From: Flavisolibacter ginsengisoli DSM 18119
GTDB taxonomy: Bacteria > Bacteroidota > Bacteroidia > Chitinophagales > Chitinophagaceae
Direction of reading: 5' to 3'
DNA length: 64,000 bases
Assembly (NCBI RefSeq): GCF_900129295.1
Contig: NZ_FQUU01000016.1
Location: 1-64,000 of the forward strand
The stretch's first letter is position 1, and each line of letters opens with the position of its first letter. The notes below the pieces were generated by a model. It had not been told where the DNA came from. It worked only from the letters and a program-made list of their open reading frames with translations, and did no database searches. Positions 25,492 through 35,577 of this stretch are shown in pieces. The translations under genes and the position numbers were made by a program.

Positions 25492-25862
25492 ATCATTATT
25501 TTTTGGAATACTGCAACTTTGATGTCTATTAAGCCAGTAAAAATACTAAGCAATGGATGAACTTCACTAGCAGTTATCCTAATGACAATAAATTAAACCT
25601 TCTTTATACTCATCAATTCAACATAGTTATCAACAATTTTGCTTCTCATTTACAAAAACCATATATTAGTACTAGTAATAAGGTATTGATTCGAAATCTT
25701 CTCCGATACAAATTCTTAATGCTTCGGGCCATCAAAAAAAGGTTATAGAACTCTTATAAAAGTCCGCAGTTTATACCCTGGTTAACCAAAGTCATGCAAA
25801 GCCGGATATAAGTATTTTATTGTTTAAATCCAGATTGTTTTTAAACGAATCAAGAATTGTAT
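25492..25862. other. Divergent intergenic region, no gene seen
   Basis: About 370 A/T-rich bases between argH (minus) and the methyltransferase gene (plus). A 63-codon plus-strand frame (25557-25748) has no protein character. No clear TAnnTTTG box or terminator was found for either neighbour. Confidence 0.5.
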
Positions 25863-26594
25863 ATGAAACTCAGGAACCCAAAGGGGAGGGATGATTTATC
25901 AATTCAAAGAAAGTATAAAGTTCTTGAAGTTGGTGGAGGACATAATCCGAGCACCAGGTCGAATGTTATTGTCGATAAATATATTTATAACAATTATCAC
26001 AGGAGCGGTGATCTGAAGATATATAACAACCAGGAATTTGTATGTGCTGATGGAGAGTGTTTACCGTTTGAAGATAAATCATTTGATTATGTTATTTGCT
26101 GCCAGGTATTAGAGCATGTAAATGATCCTATAAAATTTGTAAAGGAACAACAACGTGTTGCACAAGGAGGTTATATAGAAACCCCTTCTTTGATAGGAGA
26201 ATTTTTAATGCCTAAAGAATCTCATAAATGGGTGTCACTTGAAATTGATGAAAAGATAGTATTGTATGAAAAAGAGAAAGTTCAATTTAAGGCCATTCGC
26301 GATTATGGATATCTATTTTTAGATTTTTTACCAAGACAATCCATTGGGTATAAAGTAATGCAAAAAACACATTTTAATATACTTAGCATTAATTATGAAT
26401 GGAAAGATGAAGTCGAATTAATTGTTAACCCGGACAGTTCTTATTATTTTGATTTTTTTACTAAGCCATGGGATGAAGGAATATGTAATAAGCTCTTGAG
26501 ATACAAAAGTATCAATGAAGAGTTTTATTCTTCCTTAAATGCATTCCTGGCGCTTTGTAAAAATGTGTTTAGGAGTAAAATATTGAAAGTTTGA
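25863..26594 (+). CDS. Class I SAM-dependent methyltransferase
   Basis: This protein of about 243 residues has the methyltransferase_11 core: motif I VLEVGGGHNPST (near residue 22), the acidic loop VCADGECLPFEDKSFDYVIC, and the post-core CQVLEHVNDPIKFVKEQQRV. It then has a longer C-terminal part with HKWVSLEIDEKIVLYEKEKV. The target is unknown; such stand-alone enzymes in Bacteroidota often modify sugars or lipids of surface polymers. The TTG at 25857 is in frame, but the ATG at 25863 is the better start. It lies alone on plus between argE and argH, interrupting the arginine genes, and looks like an insertion. The A/T content looks higher than its neighbours by eye. Confidence 0.8.
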   Translation: MKLRNPKGRDDLSIQRKYKVLEVGGGHNPSTRSNVIVDKYIYNNYHRSGDLKIYNNQEFVCADGECLPFEDKSFDYVICCQVLEHVNDPIKFVKEQQRVAQGGYIETPSLIGEFLMPKESHKWVSLEIDEKIVLYEKEKVQFKAIRDYGYLFLDFLPRQSIGYKVMQKTHFNILSINYEWKDEVELIVNPDSSYYFDFFTKPWDEGICNKLLRYKSINEEFYSSLNAFLALCKNVFRSKILKV

Positions 26595-26608: not shown

Positions 26609-27679
26609 CTACAATATTTCAGATAAAACCTGGATGTAAATATCAATTCCATTTTTAATTTCCTCAACATAGATATATTCATCTGCCATGTGGCTCCTGG
26701 CTGAATCCCCTGGGCCTATTTTAAGAGCTGGAAAAGACATCAAAGCTTTATCTGAAGTTGTTGGAGAACCATAGTACGTTAACCCTAAAGAAATTCCTGA
26801 ACGCACAAGGGGATGTTGAAGAGGTATAATTGAAGACCTTATGCGGAGGCTCCTTGGAGATACATCACTATTGATATTATCTTTAATAGTTTCAACTACT
26901 TCTTCCAGAGTATATTGTTCATTAACCCGAACATCGATGACAAATTTGCATTGTGCAGGAACCACATTGTGGGCTTTGTTATCTGTTTCAATAACAGTTA
27001 CACTCATTTTTACAGCGCCGAGGAGATCAGATACTTTTTCAAAATGATGATTGGAAATCCATTCAATATCCTTCACTGCCTTATAGATTGCATTTTCTCC
27101 TTCATTTCTCGCAGCATGGCCTGCCTTGCCCATGGCTGTACAATCTAAAACAACTAATCCCTTTTCTGCTATTGCCATTTGCATTAATGTAGGTTCTCCT
27201 ACAATGGCACAATCAATGGGTGGAAGAAATTTTAATGCATTTTCGATGCCTCCCGCACCAGATATTTCTTCTTCTGCTGTAGCTGCATAAGCCAGGTTGT
27301 ATTGAAGGGAATCATTTTCATAATAGTGCAGGAAAGTCATCATCAGTGCTACAAGGCAACCACCTGCATCATTACTGCCAAGTCCGTATAATTTTCCATC
27401 TTCTATTTTTCCATCAAAGGGATCGCGGGTGTAATTGCTATTTGGCCTTACAGTATCATGATGTGAATTAAGAAGAATGGTTGGTTTGGAACTATCAAAA
27501 AATTTGTTTAAGGCCAAAACATTATTTCCAACCCTGGTGACCTGAACACCCTTGCCTGACAAAAACTTAGTTATTTCGCTGGCTGTCTGCCATTCATCTT
27601 TACTGAAAGAAGGTAATGTAATTAAATGACGAAGAAGAGCTATAGCTTCCTGTTTTAGTATTTCAGTTTCGTTATTCAT
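26609..27679 (-). CDS. argE: M20-family deacylase, acyl-ornithine/citrulline deacylase
   Basis: This 356-residue zinc-dependent M20 peptidase-family amidohydrolase removes the acyl group from an acylated arginine intermediate. Zinc ligands and catalytic residues are seen: LLNSHHDTVRP, LYGLGSNDAGG, ATAEEEISGAGG, CAIVGEPT and SARSHMADEYIYVEE. The inner dimerisation domain lies at about 170-270. It overlaps argB by 8 bases, last gene of the main operon. Because the pathway here uses acyl-ornithine carbamoylation, the true substrate is probably N-succinyl- or N-acetyl-citrulline rather than acetylornithine; this is inference from the neighbouring carbamoyltransferase. DapE is the alternative but the operon argues against it. 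Confidence 0.85.
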   Translation of the reverse strand: MNNETEILKQEAIALLRHLITLPSFSKDEWQTASEITKFLSGKGVQVTRVGNNVLALNKFFDSSKPTILLNSHHDTVRPNSNYTRDPFDGKIEDGKLYGLGSNDAGGCLVALMMTFLHYYENDSLQYNLAYAATAEEEISGAGGIENALKFLPPIDCAIVGEPTLMQMAIAEKGLVVLDCTAMGKAGHAARNEGENAIYKAVKDIEWISNHHFEKVSDLLGAVKMSVTVIETDNKAHNVVPAQCKFVIDVRVNEQYTLEEVVETIKDNINSDVSPRSLRIRSSIIPLQHPLVRSGISLGLTYYGSPTTSDKALMSFPALKIGPGDSARSHMADEYIYVEEIKNGIDIYIQVLSEIL

Positions 27680-28457
27680 TAATTATAGTTGTACCCTGGT
27701 TCCCGGCAATTAACTGTTCAAGTTGATCGGCCTGCCCAATAATTACTTTTGTAACTCCACTATCCAATGCTACGAAAGCATTGTCAAGTTTTGGAAGCAT
27801 GCCTGCAAAGACCAGGTTTTTGTCTTTAAGTTCACTATAATAGCCAGGTGTTAAGAACCTGATAACTGTTTCATTATCGTTGGCATCCAATAAGACACCG
27901 GCTTTTTCGAATGAATAGATCAGTGATACATCATAATGAGCAGCTAGTCCTTTGGCTATTTCCTGGGCTATAGTATCTGCATTTGTATTCAATAGCTGGC
28001 CATTTTTGTCATGTGTTATAGGCGCCATAACAATGCTTATATCCTGGCTAAGTAAATTTTTAAATAAGGGTACATTTATAATGTCTATATCGCCAACAAA
28101 GCCATAATCCACGTTCGGATGATTTCTTTTATGCGCCTGGATGGCATTCCCATCGGCTCCGCATAATCCAATGGAATTGCATCCATGTGATTGTAATCGG
28201 GCCACTATATTTTTATTAATATAACCTGCATAGACCATAGTGACCACCTTAAGTGTATCAGCATCCGTTATTCTACGACCATCCACAAGTTGTTGAGGAA
28301 TTTCAAGTTGGGAGGCCAATTTTGTTGCCAGTTTCCCCCCTCCATGCACGAGTATTTTTTTGCCTGGTGTGGATGCAAACGATTTTAAAAAGGAGGATAA
28401 AGAAGCCTCATTATCAATGATATTACCACCTATCTTTATTACAGATAAAGTTTCCAA
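27672..28457 (-). CDS. argB: Acetylglutamate (acylglutamate) kinase
   Basis: This 261-residue amino-acid-kinase-family enzyme phosphorylates N-acylglutamate with ATP, second step of the pathway. Seen are IKIGGNIIDN (Lys8 and glycine loop), VHGGGKLATKLA, RITDADTLKVVTMVYAG with the conserved Arg, GLCGADGNAI, and LNTNADTIAQEIA. Length fits ArgB of the arginine-insensitive short type, without the N-terminal helix used for hexamer formation and feedback inhibition, which suggests control is at transcription. It lies 5 nt after the carbamoyltransferase and overlaps argE. Whether it prefers acetyl or succinyl substrate is not visible. Confidence 0.93.
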   Translation of the reverse strand: METLSVIKIGGNIIDNEASLSSFLKSFASTPGKKILVHGGGKLATKLASQLEIPQQLVDGRRITDADTLKVVTMVYAGYINKNIVARLQSHGCNSIGLCGADGNAIQAHKRNHPNVDYGFVGDIDIINVPLFKNLLSQDISIVMAPITHDKNGQLLNTNADTIAQEIAKGLAAHYDVSLIYSFEKAGVLLDANDNETVIRFLTPGYYSELKDKNLVFAGMLPKLDNAFVALDSGVTKVIIGQADQLEQLIAGNQGTTIINE

Positions 28458-28462
28458 TAGTA

Positions 28463-29416
28463 TTAATTTGATCTAAGTATCTCATTTAAAACAGCCTGGG
28501 CTGCCCAAACCCTGTTTGATGCTTCCCTGGTTATGATACTGTTGGGACCATCAAGAATTTCATCACTTAATTCAACATTTCTTCTTACCGGCAAACAATG
28601 CATTACTTTGGCATTGTTCGTTAGCTTAAGTTTATCATTCGTAAGCATCCAGGATGGATCTGTGGACAGAACCTGTCCATAATCCTGGTAAGCACTCCAG
28701 TTCTTTACATAGATGTAATCCGCCTCTTTTAAAGCTTCATTTTGGTCATGAACTATATTGGCCCCATTGGTGAATTGCTCAGCTAATTCATATCCATTAG
28801 GATGTGTGATCACAAATTCAGCTTCTCCCCAGGCATTGATCCATTGAGCAAAACTATTGGCAACACACTGAGGTAAGGGCTTAACATGGGGTGCCCAGGT
28901 CAGCACGATCTTAGGTCTTCTTGTTTCCCTGAACGTTTCTTTAATGGTAATAACATCTGTGAGGCTTTGCAAGGGGTGGAGTGTAGCGCTCTCAAGGCTC
29001 ACTATGGGTATGCCAGCATATTTAATGAATTGCTGGATGTATTGTTCACTGTAGTCTTCTTCACGGCTTTTGAGGGTAGGGAAGGTGCGTATAGCCAGGA
29101 TATCAAAATAATTACCCATGATGGGTGCAGCATCTTTTACATGTTCAACAGTGCTGCCATTCATGATGGCGCCCTCCTCAAATTCAAGTGACCAACCTTC
29201 TGAACCCACATTGAAGACGATTGCTTCCATACCCAGGTTTTGTGCAGCAATCTGTGTGCTCAAACGGGTGCGCATACTGGGATTTAGGAAAAGACATCCT
29301 ATCCTTTTATTAACTCCTATGGTTTTATCTTTAAACGGGTCAGCCTTATAAAGCAATGCTTTTTCAACAATGGCATTTATATCTTTTACATCATGTGCGG
29401 AAATGAACTGTTTCAA
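28463..29416 (-). CDS. argF': N-succinylornithine (acylornithine) carbamoyltransferase
   Basis: This 317-residue transcarbamylase transfers carbamoyl from carbamoyl phosphate to an acylated ornithine. It shows the carbamoyl-phosphate loop SMRTRLST (residues 47-54), HPLQSLTD, TWAPHVKPLPQ and the family motif MHCLPVRRN. The substrate-choosing position, Glu92 in the Xanthomonas N-acetylornithine enzyme and Pro90 in the Bacteroides fragilis N-succinylornithine enzyme, is Val90 here (MNGSTVEH). Published swaps of that Glu to small residues including Val turn the acetyl enzyme into a succinyl one, so N-succinylornithine is the predicted substrate. Ordinary ornithine carbamoyltransferase is excluded by the motif set. 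argD follows upstream after 54 nt. Confidence 0.92.
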   Translation of the reverse strand: MKQFISAHDVKDINAIVEKALLYKADPFKDKTIGVNKRIGCLFLNPSMRTRLSTQIAAQNLGMEAIVFNVGSEGWSLEFEEGAIMNGSTVEHVKDAAPIMGNYFDILAIRTFPTLKSREEDYSEQYIQQFIKYAGIPIVSLESATLHPLQSLTDVITIKETFRETRRPKIVLTWAPHVKPLPQCVANSFAQWINAWGEAEFVITHPNGYELAEQFTNGANIVHDQNEALKEADYIYVKNWSAYQDYGQVLSTDPSWMLTNDKLKLTNNAKVMHCLPVRRNVELSDEILDGPNSIITREASNRVWAAQAVLNEILRSN

Positions 29417-29470: not shown

Positions 29471-30646
29471 TCAGGCTGACACTTCATCCACCGGAATATT
29501 TTGTTCACTCCGCAATTCATTAATTGCTTCCTGGAGTGCGTCAAGGAATTCATCCATTTGTTTGCGTGTTATAGTTAATGCCGGTAATAAGCGGATGACA
29601 TTTGGTTTAGCCTCCCCCGTAAAAACATTGTGATGTAATAACAGGTTTTTGCGAAGATCTTTTAAACCTAATGGAACATCAAACCCTATCATTAATCCTA
29701 AACCCCGAACATTTTCAATACCGTCAATTTTCCTTAATTTATTAATAAGGTACTGGCCACGCTGTTTTGATTTCTCTACCAGGTCCTCTTCTTCCATTAC
29801 CTCCAGTACAGCAAGGCCTGCAGCGCAAGCCAGGTGATTTCCTCCGAAGGTGGTACCTAACATTCCATATTTTGGTTTGATATGCGAAGCAATTAAAATG
29901 CCGCCAATGGGAAAGCCATTTCCCATTCCTTTTGCCATAGTATAAATATCTGCGTTGATCCCAGCATGATCAAAAGCGAAAAACTTTCCGCTTCTGCCAT
30001 AACCACATTGCACTTCATCAGCAATGAGTATAACTCCGTTTTCATCGCATAACTTCCGAAGCAATTGCAAAAACCCTGGGGAAGCTAACGTAATTCCACC
30101 TACACCTTGTACTGCTTCAATAATCACTGCTGCTACTTCAGTGCCGTTAGTTTGAAAATATTCTTTTAACGCCGCTTCATCATTGAATGGCAGGAATACT
30201 ACATTTTCAGTTTCATTGACAGGAGCAATGATCGATGGATTATCGGTTGCAGCTACAGCTAAAGACGTTCTGCCATGGAAAGCTTTTTTAAAGGCAATTA
30301 TCTTTTTACGACCTGTATGAAAAGAAGCCAGCTTCAATGCATTTTCATTGGCCTCAGCACCGCTGTTAACAAGAAAAAGTTGGTAGTCTTCTTTTCCGCT
30401 AAGTTTTGATAGTTTCTTTGCGAGTTCTTTTTGAATAGGAATTTGAACAGAATTTGAATAGAAGGCGATCTTATTTAGCTGTTCTTCAATTCTCTTTACC
30501 CAATGCTGATTGGAATGTCCAATACTAATTACAGCATGGCCCCCATACATATCCAGGTATTGTACTCCGTTTTCATCCCATACATAAGAATCTTTTGCTC
30601 TTTCTATGGTGATATCATTGATAGGGTAAACATCGAAAAGTTTCAT
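29471..30646 (-). CDS. argD: Acyl-ornithine aminotransferase
   Basis: This 391-residue class III PLP aminotransferase forms acyl-ornithine from the acylglutamate semialdehyde with glutamate as donor. Seen are LFLVNSGAEANENALKLA, FKKAFHGRTSLAVAATD, the aspartate in ILIADEVQCGYGRSGKFFAF, and the PLP lysine Lys239 in YTMAKGMGNGFPIGG. It overlaps proC by four bases (ATGA), so both are coupled. By the substrate logic of the operon it should accept the succinylated intermediate; that is inference. The length is typical. Confidence 0.93.
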   Translation of the reverse strand: MKLFDVYPINDITIERAKDSYVWDENGVQYLDMYGGHAVISIGHSNQHWVKRIEEQLNKIAFYSNSVQIPIQKELAKKLSKLSGKEDYQLFLVNSGAEANENALKLASFHTGRKKIIAFKKAFHGRTSLAVAATDNPSIIAPVNETENVVFLPFNDEAALKEYFQTNGTEVAAVIIEAVQGVGGITLASPGFLQLLRKLCDENGVILIADEVQCGYGRSGKFFAFDHAGINADIYTMAKGMGNGFPIGGILIASHIKPKYGMLGTTFGGNHLACAAGLAVLEVMEEEDLVEKSKQRGQYLINKLRKIDGIENVRGLGLMIGFDVPLGLKDLRKNLLLHHNVFTGEAKPNVIRLLPALTITRKQMDEFLDALQEAINELRSEQNIPVDEVSA

Positions 30647-31446
30647 GATTGTTTGTATAAATTATTAGCAATATTGGATGAGAGTTTGATTCCCTTAATA
30701 AGCGCTGAACTTAATCCCTGGTGTTCCATTTCATTTAACCCTGCAATTGTGCAACCCTTTGGAGAGGTCACTTTATCAATTTCCTGCTCAGGGTGAGTTT
30801 TGTTGGCTATGAGCAGCTTTGCTGCGCCAAATGCTGTTTGTGCAGCTATTGTAAGTGCATCATGTGCATGAAACCCTATTTCTACGCCACCCTGAGAAGC
30901 CGCCCTGATGGTGCGTAGGAAAAATGCTATACCACATGCACATAAAGCCGTGGCAGCACTCATAAGGTCCTCATTAATTACTATACACTGTCCCATTGTA
31001 TTAAACAGATCCTGCACCAGAGATATATCTTTCTCTGTAGCATTCACAGCTGAAAGGCAGGTCATACTTTCTCTTACCTTCATAGCTGTGTTAGGCATAG
31101 CCCTGACAATTCGTATATTTTCTCCTAATTTTTCACGGAACACCTGAGTATGTGCCCCTGTAACAACTGAAACAACCAATTGAGTTTTTAGATTAATGGC
31201 AGGCCTGATCTGAGCCAGGGCTTCATCTAATTGTTGTGGCAGCACACAGATGAAGATGGCATCAGCGTCCTGAATAGCTTTGGCATTATCAGTTTCTGCC
31301 TTAAAGCCTTTACCGGCTATACTTTCCAGGGCAGCAAGATTGCGACGGGTGATAGTAATATCAGCGGGCTCACATGCCAAGGAATTGATCAATCCTTCAG
31401 TCAGAGCCATTCCAATATTTCCTCCTCCAATGATAGATGCTTTCAT
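30643..31446 (-). CDS. proC: Pyrroline-5-carboxylate reductase
   Basis: This 267-residue enzyme reduces pyrroline-5-carboxylate to proline with NAD(P)H. The N-terminal Rossmann motif is ASIIGGGNIGMALTEGLI. Then follow FICVLPQQLDEAL, VRAMPNTAMKVRESMTCL, and the C-terminal dimer domain with VTSPKGCTIAGLNEME (the ProC signature). Its place inside the arginine operon, between argC and argD, is a known habit in Bacteroidota. Pathway link: glutamate semialdehyde from ornithine catabolism or the proline branch. It has 9 nt to argC and overlaps argD. Confidence 0.93.
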   Translation of the reverse strand: MKASIIGGGNIGMALTEGLINSLACEPADITITRRNLAALESIAGKGFKAETDNAKAIQDADAIFICVLPQQLDEALAQIRPAINLKTQLVVSVVTGAHTQVFREKLGENIRIVRAMPNTAMKVRESMTCLSAVNATEKDISLVQDLFNTMGQCIVINEDLMSAATALCACGIAFFLRTIRAASQGGVEIGFHAHDALTIAAQTAFGAAKLLIANKTHPEQEIDKVTSPKGCTIAGLNEMEHQGLSSALIKGIKLSSNIANNLYKQS

Positions 31447-31455
31447 ATTATAACA

Positions 31456-32433
31456 TTAAAATGCTGTTGCCTTTAGGGCTAACCCTTCTTTTTCATTCAT
31501 GCCAAACATTAAGTTGAAGTTCTGAACAGCCTGGCCTGATGCCCCTTTTAATAAATTATCAATTGCCGAATGGACTACCAGTTTGGTCCCCACTTTTTCT
31601 AATTGTATAATACACTTATTTGTATTAACCACTTGTTTTAAAGTAATCTCCTGCCTGCTTACTATGGTAAAAGATTGATCTTTATAAAAATCCTGGTAAA
31701 GGTCAAATAACTGTTGATGATCCCACTGGCAATTGATCATGGAGCTTATAAAAATACCCCTTGTAAAATCACCCCGCCAGGGAACAAAATTAATTTCAGG
31801 GGCTTGGGCACCTAATTGATCCAGGGATTGATTGATCTCTTTTAAATGCTGATGTGTTAATGTTTTATAAGCCTGGATGTTATTAGCTCTCCAGCTAAAA
31901 TGAGAGGTAGAAGAAAGGCCCTGTCCTGCACCTGTGGAACCGGTAATGCCAGTACTATGCACTTCATTTAGTATACCTGCTGCTGCCAGGGGTAGCAATC
32001 CTAACTGTATAGCTGTTGCAAAGCAGCCTGGATTAGCGATGTTTTGGGCAGTGGTGATCTTATCTTTATTTAACTCCGGAAGGCCGTATATGAATTTCCT
32101 AGACTGGAAATTAGAATTGGAATCTAATCGAAAGTCCTGTGAAAGGTCTATAATTTTTATATGGGCAGGTACCTCATTGGCCTCAAGAAATTTCTTTGCT
32201 TCACCATGACCCACGCATAAAAAAAGAGCATCCACATCATTTGATAATTGACCTGAAAAAATAAGGTCAATATCGCCAACAAGGTCATGATGAACAGAGG
32301 TTACGGGCTTGCCTGCATTACTGCGGCTATGAATATAAGAAAGCGTAACTCCGGGATGGTTTATCAGGAGTCGTATAAGTTCACCTCCTGTGTAGCCAGC
32401 ACCTCCAATAATGCCGATCTTTATATTTTTCAT
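31456..32433 (-). CDS. argC: N-acyl-gamma-glutamyl-phosphate reductase
   Basis: This reductase of about 325 residues converts acylglutamyl phosphate to the semialdehyde with NADPH. Motifs: the Rossmann start IGIIGGAGYTGGELIRLL, FLCVGHGEAKKF, IIDLSQDFRL, YGLPELNK, and the catalytic Cys in NPGCFATAIQLGLLPL; then STGITGSTGAGQGLSSTSHFSWR. The short form (about 325 residues) is standard here. I prefer the ATG at 32433 (MKNIKIG), just after the cupin stop, over one 12 bases upstream that would overlap it. Third enzyme of the pathway. Confidence 0.93.
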   Translation of the reverse strand: MKNIKIGIIGGAGYTGGELIRLLINHPGVTLSYIHSRSNAGKPVTSVHHDLVGDIDLIFSGQLSNDVDALFLCVGHGEAKKFLEANEVPAHIKIIDLSQDFRLDSNSNFQSRKFIYGLPELNKDKITTAQNIANPGCFATAIQLGLLPLAAAGILNEVHSTGITGSTGAGQGLSSTSHFSWRANNIQAYKTLTHQHLKEINQSLDQLGAQAPEINFVPWRGDFTRGIFISSMINCQWDHQQLFDLYQDFYKDQSFTIVSRQEITLKQVVNTNKCIIQLEKVGTKLVVHSAIDNLLKGASGQAVQNFNLMFGMNEKEGLALKATAF

Positions 32434-32435
32434 GT

Positions 32436-32783
32436 TCAAATGCAATTTATCCTATCCATTATAGTTGAGGGATTGGAACAAAGTAAAAACTCAACATCCC
32501 CTGATCCATTATTTTTAATGCAATGTTTTTTCCCTGCTTCAATATGAATTCCTTCTCCCGGATTGAGTTCTATTGTTTCGCCTTCAACAAGAAGATTTGC
32601 TGTGCCCTTAAGGATATAAAAGAATTGTTGTGCCTCCTTGTGATAGTGAAGTTGTTCCAAAGTGCCTGGTGGCATTCTCTCCTGTTTAATGGAAAGGTTC
32701 TTATTATCAACCAAATTCCATCCATCACATTCAGCGCCCCATTTATAATGTTTTAAGGGATAATATTTTGAAATGGCATGCAT
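32436..32783 (-). CDS. Small cupin-domain protein inside the arg operon
   Basis: This 115-residue single-domain cupin_2 protein has two cupin motifs: PPGTLEQLHYHKEAQQFFYILKG (motif 1, His metal ligands and Glu) and NPGEGIHIEAGKKHCIKNNG (motif 2, last His ligand). The N-terminal part KHYKWGAECDGWNLVDNKNL is hydrophilic, without a signal peptide. Such small cupins are often sugar- or amino-acid-derivative isomerases or metal sensors; the exact role is unknown. It overlaps argG by one base (TAATG) and touches argC, so it is surely translated with the operon. A regulatory or side-reaction role in arginine synthesis is possible inference only. Confidence 0.85.
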   Translation of the reverse strand: MHAISKYYPLKHYKWGAECDGWNLVDNKNLSIKQERMPPGTLEQLHYHKEAQQFFYILKGTANLLVEGETIELNPGEGIHIEAGKKHCIKNNGSGDVEFLLCSNPSTIMDRINCI

Positions 32784-34021
32784 TATTTATTTGATTCCTG
32801 TACCTGGTGGTAGATTGAGGTTTGATTGCCAAATATCTTACTGAATCCTCTTACATCCTCACCTGTAAATCCTGTGTTCATTTCGCCATACTTTCCGAAC
32901 TTACTGCTCATGAGATCATACGCTGAATTAATGCCTATAACCTGGAATCTATATGGTAGAAGCTGAACAAAAACCTCACCTGTTACATTTTCCTGCGAGT
33001 TTTGGAAAAAAGCTTCAATATCCCTCATCACAGGATCAAGGATCTGGCCCTCGTGTAGCCAATTGCCGTAAAATAAGGCCAACTGATCTTTCCAGTTTAG
33101 TTGCCATTTGGTCAACACGTGCTTCTCAAGAGCATGATGTGATTTTAAAATGATCATTGGAGCAGCAGCTTCAAAACCTACACGTCCTTTTATACCTATA
33201 ATAGTATCTCCGACATGTATATCTCTTCCAATACCGTAAGCGCCTGCAATAGCTTGGAGTTGTTGAATTGCCTCGGCAGGGTGAGCAAAAGACTGGTCGT
33301 TAATAGCAATCAGTTCCCCCTTATTAAAATGCAATTTTATCTCTTCATCGCCGGTTTTTGAAACATGGGTTGGCCAGGCTTCTTCAGGCAACATTCCTTT
33401 AGAAGATAAAGTCTCTTTTCCTCCTACACTGGTGCCCCATAACCCTTTGTTTATGGAATACACAGCCTTAGCAAAATTCATTTCTACTCCCTTGAATTTC
33501 AAATAATCTATCTCTTCTTCCCGGCTTAATTTAAGGTCCCGTATTGGTGTTATTATCTCAACCCCGGGGATCATAATATGAAAGATCATATCAAAGCGTA
33601 CCTGGTCGTTTCCAGCTCCTGTACTTCCATGGGCAACAGCTTTAGCGCCCATTGCTTTTGCATGTTCAGCTATATGCAGCGCCTGTACCAACCTTTCAGC
33701 ACTTACACTTAAAGGATATGTATTATTCTTAAGAACATTTCCAAATACGAGGTATTTAATGATCCTGTCATAATAGCTTTTCACAGCATCAATAGTCGTA
33801 TGAGATTTTACACCTAGTTTATAGGCATGTGCTTCTATATCTTTTAATTCTTCTTCAGTGAAGCCACCAGTATTAACTATAATACTATGAACTTCATAAC
33901 CTTGCTCATCGGTTAAATATTTTACACAAAAAGAAGTATCTAAACCTCCGCTAAATCCTAGAATTATTTTTTCGCCTTTCCTTTCCTGGGAACCTTTTAA
34001 AGAATCAATTTTTGAAACCAT
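32783..34021 (-). CDS. argG: Argininosuccinate synthase
   Basis: This 412-residue enzyme condenses citrulline and aspartate with ATP to argininosuccinate. The PP-loop ILGFSGGLDTSFCVKYL (about residues 20-36), VAHGSTGAGNDQVRFD and the SSKGMLPEEAW region are visible, as is IGRDIHVGDTIIGIKGRVGFEAA. The C-terminal helix is present. The start is ATG at 34021, 15 nt after the GNAT gene. No anomaly; second gene of the operon. Confidence 0.95.
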   Translation of the reverse strand: MVSKIDSLKGSQERKGEKIILGFSGGLDTSFCVKYLTDEQGYEVHSIIVNTGGFTEEELKDIEAHAYKLGVKSHTTIDAVKSYYDRIIKYLVFGNVLKNNTYPLSVSAERLVQALHIAEHAKAMGAKAVAHGSTGAGNDQVRFDMIFHIMIPGVEIITPIRDLKLSREEEIDYLKFKGVEMNFAKAVYSINKGLWGTSVGGKETLSSKGMLPEEAWPTHVSKTGDEEIKLHFNKGELIAINDQSFAHPAEAIQQLQAIAGAYGIGRDIHVGDTIIGIKGRVGFEAAAPMIILKSHHALEKHVLTKWQLNWKDQLALFYGNWLHEGQILDPVMRDIEAFFQNSQENVTGEVFVQLLPYRFQVIGINSAYDLMSSKFGKYGEMNTGFTGEDVRGFSKIFGNQTSIYHQVQESNK

Positions 34022-34036
34022 TGCTATTGAAAGAAT

Positions 34037-34750
34037 TTAGAAGTGGAAAAAGTTAAATAGGCTCATTTTGAGTTTCCTATTTGTATTACGGTCAGAATTG
34101 TTCTTTTCAATACCGCGTAATCTTTTTAGAAATTTGCTTTGCTTGATCTTGAGTAATCTTTCATACACCTTACTTTTCTTTTCAAAATGCTCACTCGTTT
34201 CCTGTGGCTGGTAATGATCTTTTGGATCGTAAAGCATGGCAGTACAAAGGCAGTTTTTGCGTTCTTTACTCATTAGAATATCATAATTGACGCAACTTTT
34301 GCATCCTGCCCAGAATTTTTCATCCTGCGTGAGTTCAGAATAAGTAACAGGTTCGTAGCCAAGATCGCTATTGATCTTCATTACAGCCAGGCCTGTTGTG
34401 AGCCCAAAGATCTTTGCTTCCGGGTATTTTTCACGGCTGAGTTTAAAAATGCGTTCTTTAATAGCTTTAGCCACACCACTTTTGCGAAAGTCAGGGGATA
34501 CAATTAACCCGGAGTTAGCCACATACTCACCTTCCCAGGTTTCTATATAACAAAACCCAACCCATGTACCCTCGTTAGTGACAGCTATTACAGCCTTGCC
34601 CTCTTCAATTTTCTGTGAAATATATTCTGGTGATCTTTTAGCTATACCTGTACCACGGGCTTTTGCCGAAGACTCCATTTCATTTGTAATGGTTTCGGCA
34701 TATTTTTTATCTTCTGGTGTTGCCACCCTAATGACAATATTCTGTTCCAA
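34037..34750 (-). CDS. GNAT acyltransferase, likely N-acyl(succinyl)glutamate synthase
   Basis: This 237-residue first structural gene of the arginine operon has the GNAT fold: IRVATPEDKKYAETI, GKAVIAVTNEGTWVGF, a beta strand GEYVANSGLIVSPDFRKSG with the acetyl/succinyl-CoA loop RKSGVAKAIK, and FGLTTGLAVMKINSDLGYEPV. A Cys-rich piece (CKSC, then CLC) and a basic C-terminal tail follow. No other argA or argJ is present, so it probably makes the N-acylglutamate that starts the pathway. I recall the same gene position in Bacteroides, where it has been proposed as a novel N-acyl/succinylglutamate synthase. The start is a TTG at 34750; the next in-frame ATG is at codon 25 and upstream there is only a stop. 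Confidence 0.8.
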   Translation of the reverse strand: MEQNIVIRVATPEDKKYAETITNEMESSAKARGTGIAKRSPEYISQKIEEGKAVIAVTNEGTWVGFCYIETWEGEYVANSGLIVSPDFRKSGVAKAIKERIFKLSREKYPEAKIFGLTTGLAVMKINSDLGYEPVTYSELTQDEKFWAGCKSCVNYDILMSKERKNCLCTAMLYDPKDHYQPQETSEHFEKKSKVYERLLKIKQSKFLKRLRGIEKNNSDRNTNRKLKMSLFNFFHF

Positions 34751-34782: not shown

Positions 34783-34861
34783 AACCAATCCTGTACCAAT
34801 AAACTTGGGAGATTTCACTGATAGGGGCCTTGGTTAATGGCTCGTCCTATCAGCAACCAGG
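34783..34861 (-). promoter_or_regulatory. Candidate arginine attenuator, competing hairpins
   Basis: On minus, right after the Arg codons of the leader ORF, five segments can pair in exclusive ways: 1 CCTGGTT (34861-34855), 2 CTGATAGG (34853-34846), 3 AACCAAGG (34835-34828), 4 CCTATCAG (34825-34818), 5 TTGGTT (34788-34783). Pairs 2:4 (8 bp, perfect), 1:3 and 3:5 are possible. A T-run follows at 34763-34756, not directly behind a stem, so the terminator form is not certain. Ribosome stalling at the leader's Arg codons would choose between the forms. Confidence 0.5.
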
Positions 34862-34966
34862 TCGTCGTCTTGAGAGGTAGCGAAAAATATCAAAACATAC
34901 ATCATACATGCGGGTAGAAATGCGCGCATGAAAGATATAATGCTTGTTATGTATGTTGTTGCTCAT
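34850..34966 (-). CDS. Arginine-rich leader peptide of the arg operon
   Basis: This short ORF encodes 38 residues. It begins MSNNIHNKHYIF, continues with HARISTRMYDV and ends SRRRPGC and stop. Six residues are Arg, with three consecutive Arg codons (AGA CGA CGA, 34870-34862) three codons before the stop. It starts about 8 nt after a predicted transcription start and lies about 100 nt before the first arg structural gene, where a leader-peptide attenuator is expected. Its stop codon lies within segment 2 of the downstream hairpin set. I know no family for the peptide itself; the role, sensing charged tRNA-Arg by ribosome stalling, is inferred from design. A chance ORF is the alternative, but RRR at the end of a short leader before an arginine operon is unlikely by accident. 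Confidence 0.65.
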   Translation of the reverse strand: MSNNIHNKHYIFHARISTRMYDVCFDIFRYLSRRRPGC

Positions 34967-34980
34967 TTATGTGGGAAATG

Positions 34981-35013
34981 CAAATCTATATTTAATTCTG
35001 GTTTATTTTCAAT
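34981..35013 (-). promoter_or_regulatory. Promoter of the arginine operon
   Basis: On minus, ATTG (35013-35010), 21 nt, TAGATTTG (34988-34981). Transcription would start near 34974, giving a leader of about 225 nt containing the leader peptide and hairpins before the GNAT gene. Confidence 0.6.
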
Positions 35014-35480: not shown

Positions 35481-35506
35481 AAAACCGGTCGAAGACCGGT
35501 TTTTTG
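35481..35506. terminator. Bidirectional terminator between small gene and tRNA-Gln
   Basis: A perfect 8-bp stem AACCGGTC/GACCGGTT with a GAA loop (35483-35501) has a T-run on plus (35500-35505) and an A-run before it (35479-35484) that serves as T-run on minus. It ends the 35200-35472 gene on plus and the tRNA-Gln transcript on minus. Confidence 0.85.
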
Positions 35507-35577
35507 TTGAGCTACTAGGATTCGAACCTAGACAGACAGAACCAAAATCTGTAGTGCTACCGTTACACCATAGCTCA
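35507..35577 (-). tRNA. tRNA-Gln (anticodon TTG)
   Basis: A 71-nt cloverleaf: acceptor TGAGCTA (35577-35571) pairs with TAGCTCA (35514-35508), discriminator A. The anticodon loop is TTTTGGT with TTG, and the T-arm has GGTTCGAATCC. CCA is not encoded. A strong promoter lies 39 nt upstream. Confidence 0.95.

Follow-up and report, generated by a model that had tools for sequence, protein, structure and literature searches.

A candidate arginine-sensing leader peptide upstream of the arginine biosynthesis operon of Flavisolibacter ginsengisoli

We identified a short ORF, here proposed as argL, ahead of the arginine biosynthesis genes within the 64 000 nt of DNA analysed (the window), and consider it very likely that this leader exerts ribosome-mediated, arginine-responsive control over the arg operon in place of the repressor ArgR. 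Ribosome pausing, the direction of the switch and the response to arginine are inferred. A ribosome-sensing arginine leader had been put forward in a preliminary description of this DNA, and the proposal is now supported by the conservation of the leader amongst relatives, by compensatory changes in a hairpin that we term P1, and by the lack of ArgR matches in 191 Chitinophagaceae genomes; neither a response to arginine nor termination has been shown. Clustered Arg codons, a rare-codon bias that points to one tRNA, and a hairpin at the stop codon with alternative pairing partners are together what a ribosome-mediated leader needs.

The leader ORF and the operon downstream

The leader ORF lies on the minus strand, from an ATG to a TGA (34966-34850), and its 38 codons specify the peptide MSNNIHNKHYIFHARISTRMYDVCFDIFRYLSRRRPGC, with the C-terminal end RRRPGC. 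Six of the codons encode Arg, including the consecutive control codons AGA CGA CGA (Arg-Arg-Arg; 34870-34862, minus strand), which are positioned four to six codons before the TGA. The ORF is therefore present as first described, with its six Arg codons and three in a row near the end. The promoter that had been claimed just before it was also recognizable, as a TAnnTTTG box read from the sequence (TAGATTTG, 34988-34981, minus strand) with a TTG at 35012-35010, 21 nt upstream of the box. A TAnnTTTG box was found within 60 nt upstream of 45/136 Chitinophagaceae leader starts, against 4.2 expected from mononucleotide shuffles. A tRNA-Gln (TTG) gene is encoded on the same strand upstream of the leader promoter (35506-35577, minus strand). 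An overlapping 31-codon ORF in another frame (34834-34929) was rejected as the leader, since the clustering of Arg codons is absent from the two other frames (see the scan below).

The leader TGA is separated by 99 nt from the start codon of the next gene (TTG, 34750). The distance of about 100 nt previously given to the first arginine gene thus holds as a gap, but the first gene of the operon encodes a GNAT-family acetyltransferase with no function assigned (34037-34750; Pfam Acetyltransf_1 just above the cut-off), and argG is the second. Downstream of the GNAT gene, and like it on the minus strand, follow argG, encoding argininosuccinate synthase (32783-34021; TIGR00032 above cut-off), a gene for a small cupin protein (32436-32783), argC (31456-32445; TIGR01850 above cut-off), a proC gene of the pyrroline-5-carboxylate reductase family (30643-31446; TIGR00112 above cut-off), an argD-type aminotransferase gene (29471-30646; TIGR00707 at 374.4 bits, under the cut-off of 410.05), argF′, encoding N-acylornithine carbamoyltransferase (28463-29416; PRK04523 at 283.4 bits, just under the cut-off of 288), argB, encoding acylglutamate kinase (27672-28457; TIGR00761 above cut-off), and a gene for an ArgE/DapE-type deacylase (26609-27679; TIGR01910 at 148.1 bits, under the cut-off of 217.6). 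The argH gene lies apart from the operon (25491-24190). Between it and the ArgE-type gene, a gene with a methyltransferase domain is encoded on the opposite strand (25857-26594, plus strand) and apparently splits the arginine genes.

The place of the GNAT gene is conserved, and its product has no close curated family (PRK07757 at 28.9 bits against a cut-off of 154) and contains Cys in its C-terminal part. The protein is a candidate for the enzyme of the first, N-acylating step of the arginine pathway, a function that we infer; to our knowledge, the enzyme of this step is unassigned in Bacteroidota.

The GNAT gene was present in 155/195 Chitinophagaceae genomes, and the DNA upstream of it was read for 149. 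The six genomes left out were G143, in which the GNAT gene is at the contig start, and G043, G090, G121, G128 and G147. One upstream region (L028) contained runs of N and was excluded from both the ORF count and the genus count, leaving 148 usable regions. A leader was defined as an ORF of 12-95 codons with its stop 75-180 nt before the GNAT gene and the pattern R.?R within its last nine residues. This rule was passed by 140 of the 148 regions and failed by 8, whereas 20 rounds of dinucleotide shuffling gave a mean of 8.55 and a maximum of 17, so the ORF is not a product of chance. When at least three Arg residues were demanded, 121/148 regions passed against 2.05 in shuffles. The reverse complement gave 28 regions with the two-Arg rule and 13 with three or more Arg, and with any of the other 19 amino acids in place of Arg no count exceeded 52 (Pro), followed by 39 (Leu). 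The leader stops of relatives mostly fall approximately 85-160 nt before the GNAT gene, and a leader that could be classed occurred in at least one member of 81 of the 83 genera read. The preliminary description had named the conservation in relatives of a short ORF bearing an Arg-codon cluster as part of the evidence that would support its proposal, and such an ORF is found before GNAT-argG across the family.

The leaders fell into three classes. Class A (n=55), to which the window belongs, has ends such as PRRGC and RRRPEC and carries hairpin P1; class B (n=53) has RRPRI-like ends and class C (n=36) VRVRR-like ends. No two classes were found within one genus. It should be noted that class A was defined by its hairpin and classes B and C by their last residues, so that the RR end of class C is true by definition. 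Five of the 149 upstream regions remained unclassed (L028, L093, L104, L131 and L149). Structure alignment of class C with RNAalifold gave no structure (energy 0), and hairpins spotted by eye in this class were not counted.

Hairpin P1 and its competing pairings

Hairpin P1 occupies 34853-34818 of the minus strand and includes the stop codon of the leader. In order, it consists of the 5′ arm CTGATAGG (34853-34846), which contains the TGA, ACGA, GCC, the loop ATTAACCAA, GGC, C and the 3′ arm CCTATCAG (34825-34818). The GCC (34841-34839) and GGC (34829-34827) form an inner stem that encloses the 9-nt loop (34838-34830). Further downstream, the element GGATTGGTTATCC (34791-34779, minus strand), distinguished by covariation and alternative folds, offers competing partners: its TTGGTTA (34788-34782) has a complement in TAACCAA within the P1 loop (34836-34830), and its GATTGG (34790-34785) has one, with a single mismatch, in CCTATC within the 3′ arm.

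All of the segments for which exclusive pairings had originally been proposed could be located, namely CCTGGTT (34861-34855), CTGATAGG (34853-34846), AACCAAGG (34835-34828), CCTATCAG (34825-34818) and TTGGTT (34788-34783). The pairings themselves fared unequally: the CTGATAGG/CCTATCAG hairpin is kept in relatives and AACCAA/TTGGTT is partly kept, but CCTGGTT/AACCAAGG, judged by eye, is not.

The CTGATAGG/CCTATCAG hairpin had a folding energy of -13.5 kcal/mol (z -4.06), which none of 200 shuffles equalled. The P1 pattern had a single exact match in its own 4.68-Mb genome and none in 100 shuffles of the window. Covariation was assessed in 43 sequences (41 distinct) drawn from 51 matched loci. 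In this alignment, 98.7 % of the cells were paired, against 31.9-42.0 % for slid structures. The number of cells changed on both sides was 37 against 12.7 in shuffled alignments, and the covariation score was 0.227 against 0.109, neither value being reached in 500 shuffles. The compensatory changes that had been sought in the hairpin arms of relatives are therefore found in P1, where they affect two of the three inner pairs; seven of the eight outer pairs are invariant. There was no excess over shuffles in the number of P1 pairs with double changes (3 versus 2.6) or in further pair types (7 versus 6.7). The sequences are related, so the shuffle figures here, and the Fisher figure below, overstate their independence.

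Covariation also extended to the competing pairings. Across 52 elements, the longest complementary run between the P1 loop and the downstream GGAYTGGT averaged 4.96 nt, against 4.20 for species-swapped pairs (300 permutations, largest 4.51). In the 36 of 55 class A elements that contain the ACC/TGGT motif (the other 19 lack it), the nucleotides immediately 5′ of ACC and 3′ of GGT were Watson-Crick partners in 22, against 9.1 expected, a number not reached in 5000 trials. Likewise, CCTRTC of the P1 3′ arm can pair with the downstream GAYTGG. Amongst the 73 of 147 unique elements with the needed motif, A at the variable arm position was accompanied by T in 13, C in 2 and A in 1, and G by C in 33, T in 19, A in 4 and G in 1 (Fisher P 0.0009), an association that is modest and uncorrected for kinship. 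Judging from the covariation of loop and arm, it seems that the one downstream element can pair with either of them.

Constrained folding of the window leader gave full P1 with a ribosome placed five codons before the stop and a shortened P1 with the ribosome four codons before it. With the ribosome on the stop, or with none, the predicted fold was a long competing helix and not P1. The folds of 13 species differed in detail, and the competing helix of the window was not predicted in all of the relatives folded.

Finally, the P1 pattern was scanned over the contigs of GTDB genomes without demanding any ORF or gene, giving at least 117 stretches that are not a random sample. Among the matches listed, a GNAT start lay at most 300 nt downstream in 114/117 stretches, the exceptions being L255 and L337, where the DNA ends, and L289. 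Also among the matches listed, argG was downstream in 94/94 loci with more than 1500 nt of sequence, and argC in 66/66 with enough DNA. The association of P1 with GNAT-argG is near-exclusive. The 80 named records among the matches listed all bear Bacteroidota names, many of them Chitinophagaceae, except that L289 comes from a Candidatus Thiodiazotropha MAG, has no GNAT gene within the 497 nt available downstream and may represent chance or a mis-binned contig. Records of Sediminibacterium and Niabella type strains are among those in which the scan located the element. Pooling the family and scan sets gave 170 class A elements, 156 of them distinct after 14 duplicated places were accounted for. 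In 155/156 of these, the TGA of P1 closed an open frame of 15 or more codons, and at least two Arg residues were present in the last ten codons in 153/156, against 21/312 for the other two frames. The elements without two Arg in the last ten codons were L023/L320, L041 and L289.

Arg codons and the mode of action of the leader

The Arg codons near the leader end are biased to the rare CGA. Of the 329 Arg codons in the last ten leader codons of the scan set (116 loci), 141 were CGA, against 300/4273 in the long ORFs of these loci and 7/98 in the earlier codons of the leaders. The Chitinophagaceae set gave CGA in 231 of 444 control Arg codons, against 4/84 in the arg operon genes of the window. 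A tRNA search of the genome, with scoring of 150 out of 271 initial candidates, gave 43 matches that were all typed, and the tRNA-Arg genes amongst them have the anticodons UCU, CCU, ACG and CCG, which leaves CGA to the ACG tRNA. Pairing of inosine with A makes for slow decoding. The accessible part of one study states that tRNA-Arg(ACG) carrying inosine decodes CGU, CGC and CGA in most bacteria (PMC3711424).

These features suggest the following model. The promoter just upstream would give rise to a transcript in which the 38-codon ORF is translated. When tRNA-Arg(ACG, i.e. ICG) is under-charged, the ribosome would pause at the Arg codons near the end, most of which belong to that tRNA in this family, above all at CGA, and leave the stop-codon segment CTGATAGG free, so that P1 could form. 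A ribosome that reached the stop would instead cover CTGATAGG, and the P1 3′ arm and loop would be free to pair with GGAYTGGT. The P1 state is proposed to allow, and the competing state to prevent, expression of GNAT-argG-argC-proC-argD-argF′-argB-argE, the leader standing in for the repressor ArgR, which was not found in Chitinophagaceae. The direction of the switch, from pause to P1 to an active operon, is inferred from geometry. In class C leaders, the last two Arg codons adjoin the stop codon, and the logic of P1 cannot be transferred to them unchanged, because a ribosome stalled there would cover the stop-codon segment.

We searched all three classes for intrinsic terminators, defined as a hairpin plus a U-tract. 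These were in excess in class B (24/53 versus 7.6 expected) and class C (16/36 versus 8.2), but not in class A (5/55 versus 7.8), and the window (L001) was not among the five. No classical intrinsic terminator was found in the window. A looser hairpin search (class A 9/55, class B 18/53, class C 19/36) had no shuffle control and was not used as evidence. Given the lack of a terminator excess in class A, we do not file the window leader in the trpL/hisL class, which is defined by an intrinsic terminator and which it is proposed to resemble in its working as far as that step, and Rho-dependent, translational or unusual termination is still possible.

Two forms of leader control were considered for the final step. 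One, to which we assign a little under an even chance, is that the leader acts through GNAT translation or Rho, the pause or P1 shielding or exposing a loading site without any intrinsic terminator. It accords with the lack of U-tract terminators in class A, and the Staphylococcus aureus rbfL leader provides, in the available part of its description, a precedent for an arginine-sensing leader that acts on translation (PMC13009471). However, the window leader stops 99 nt from the GNAT start and does not overlap the start region, unlike rbfL. The other, tenable but somewhat more doubtful, is transcription attenuation of the trpL/hisL kind, with P1 as antiterminator and an intrinsic terminator formed either by the competing helix or by a hairpin further on. 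P1 begins at the leader stop, and the first control codons are sufficiently distant from it that a ribosome paused on them would leave it free; terminator-like hairpins are more frequent than in shuffles for classes B and C, but the class A count, from which the window is missing, runs against this form.

A different mechanism, which we judge improbable, is that of an arrest peptide resembling TnaC or the arginine attenuator peptide of fungi, in which it is the nascent chain that halts the ribosome, whether or not free arginine takes part, and tRNA charging is not sensed. Its support comes from 32 distinct leaders of the HTK type, all equally long, compared in 493 pairs over the region ahead of the last 12 codons only. 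Changes at codon positions 1/2/3 numbered 1267/721/5528, and 4426 codon changes were synonymous against 1834 nonsynonymous; third positions drift while amino acids are kept, which indicates that the HTK-type peptide is held by selection. In three other length groups of 5-6 leaders each (92/65/176, 62/57/182 and 56/46/115) the excess of third-position changes was weaker, and in two class B groups, compared over the whole leader (296/245/379 and 535/486/857), it was weak. Furthermore, by eye, the N-terminal part of the leader is not conserved across classes and families while the Arg cluster is, and the bias towards the rare CGA points to sensing at the level of the codon. Selection at the amino-acid level outside the Arg codons is not required by simple codon sensing and does not fit it; within ribosome-mediated leader control, it is possible that the nascent chain has a supporting role.

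Neither the leader nor its RNA matched a known family. Searches with the Rfam 15 covariance models at E up to 5 found a true tRNA upstream together with weak matches, the one over the leader being to Entero_CRE (19.7 bits against a gathering score of 55), and no match at gathering score was obtained in the loci of 20 relatives. A T-box or other known Rfam RNA was rejected on these grounds, there being no match at the window or at the 20 relatives' loci. None of five leaders matched Pfam or NCBIfam at E 1.

Ribosome-mediated attenuators of amino-acid operons include trpL, hisL, thrL, pheL and the ilv/leu leaders. The window leader resembles those of trpL/hisL in being a short ORF before a biosynthetic operon, with codons for its own pathway near the stop and a hairpin that overlaps the stop. 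It differs in that the amino acid is arginine, in its rare-codon bias, in the lack of a terminator excess in class A and in having a hairpin type that depends on lineage. The fungal arginine attenuator peptide is likewise encoded by a leader and responsive to arginine, as is proposed here, but it is eukaryotic and stalls with free arginine.

Our literature search, which did not cover most subscription journals or supplementary files, turned up no account of such a leader peptide, with arginine as its amino acid, before a bacterial arginine operon. The closest candidates within the phylum come from Flavobacterium psychrophilum, where the available text reports strong indications that operons for amino-acid biosynthesis are attenuated by leader peptides, with structured 5′ elements at pheA and hisG amongst others; its main text mentions arginine once, for cyanophycin, and the supplementary table was not covered (PMC9723704). 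The accessible part of a report on Bacteroides 5′ UTRs notes short ORFs reminiscent of leader peptides (PMC7366714). In S. aureus, the short upstream ORF rbfL is described as sensing arginine limitation via rare Arg codons; unlike the window leader, it controls a biofilm regulator and overlaps the ribosome-binding site, starvation lowers expression, and the peptide and phylum are different (PMC13009471, available part). A 2005 survey of Actinobacteria, as far as its available text goes, did not detect any conserved RNA structure ahead of the arginine operons of that group, and refers to arginine T-boxes elsewhere (PMC1262725). Arginine T-boxes also control arginine genes at the RNA level, but a T-box binds tRNA directly, and no Rfam T-box match was obtained here. 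Pseudomonas aeruginosa carA, like the window, has a leader peptide upstream of a gene that serves arginine synthesis (cited in PMC4997734); in the accessible part of that paper, it differs in that possible attenuation provides pyrimidine control, whereas arginine control is transcriptional. Neither arginine nor the string Bacteroid- appears in the main text of a 2010 survey of attenuation (PMC2965389), and arginine is not mentioned in the available part of PMC4833913.

ArgR and leaders across Bacteroidota

Ordinary ArgR-type repression with an incidental ORF is hardly credible in this family: ArgR is known from other Bacteroidota (110/296 phylum genomes), but its domain PF01316 was found in 0/191 Chitinophagaceae genomes, the window's own included, by a search that was positive in 9/14 control genomes, and the leader ORF is conserved far beyond chance (140/148); we reject ArgR control for Chitinophagaceae on this basis, although an unrelated arginine repressor is not excluded.

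A GNAT match was present in 124 phylum genomes (Chitinophagaceae included), and 70 upstream regions from outside the family, picked for family spread, were read. Leaders with at least three Arg residues were found in 26 of the 70, against 2.1 by shuffling, and 44 failed. By family, they occurred in f2 (4/5), f3 (5/7), f5 (3/13), f8 (5/7), f23 (8/8) and f37 (1/3, possibly a chance match), and in none of the other 13 families read. Some failures may be noted: L159 and L162 (f8) and L167 (f24) do not meet the three-Arg rule, though Arg-rich leader ends are recorded for all three under a less strict one.

The Arg codons of the 26 leaders from other families comprised 34 CGG, 26 AGG, 19 CGA, 15 CGC, 12 CGT and 4 AGA. 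Visual inspection of their control codons showed AGG to be frequent in f8 and f2, CGG in f23, and CGT and CGC in f5. Across families, the amino acid Arg is thus kept, while codon and tRNA differ.

None of the 26 leader-bearing genomes from outside the family had an ArgR match. Three of the 44 leader-failing genomes did: G417 and G425, both of f11, and G222, with five weak copies (E 1.6e-7). In the leaderless G417 and G425, argR is located directly before GNAT-argG, one genome corresponding to L390 and the other to L391, so that argR occupies the site where other genomes have the leader peptide. Both a leader with three Arg residues and an ArgR match were lacking in all four f4 genomes read and in 10 of the 13 from f5. 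Inverted repeats of the AGATA...TATCT type lie upstream of the GNAT gene in L174, L175 and L187 (f5) and L186 (f4), which have no leader or ArgR match. Without an estimate of their chance occurrence, these repeats can only be called possible operators for some other regulator; L167 and L212 also contain single hits.

A broader idea, which we regard as unlikely in its full form, is that of an ancient, phylum-wide Bacteroidota sensor, in which a slow codon read by a single tRNA-Arg, a selected nascent chain and a terminator-less switch between hairpin and distal loop do the job of ArgR, leader and argR having been swapped at one operon position. The narrower proposal of ribosome-mediated leader control in Chitinophagaceae offers a possible answer to how arginine synthesis is controlled in a large group of Bacteroidota without ArgR, and can be tested at one locus. 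If it is true, arginine joins the amino acids whose operons are sensed by the ribosome, and the leaders represent a natural assay for the decoding of CGA by tRNA-Arg(ICG).

The comparison of leaders also shows a case in which the sensor, the cluster of Arg codons, is kept and the RNA switch is replaced, the hairpin type changing between lineages. In f5, the three loci L192, L196 and L197 share a hairpin-like stretch, GGAAATAGGTGAGTCCATTTCC (with one GGGAAT variant), which follows leaders ending in RRRP and represents a switch unlike P1.
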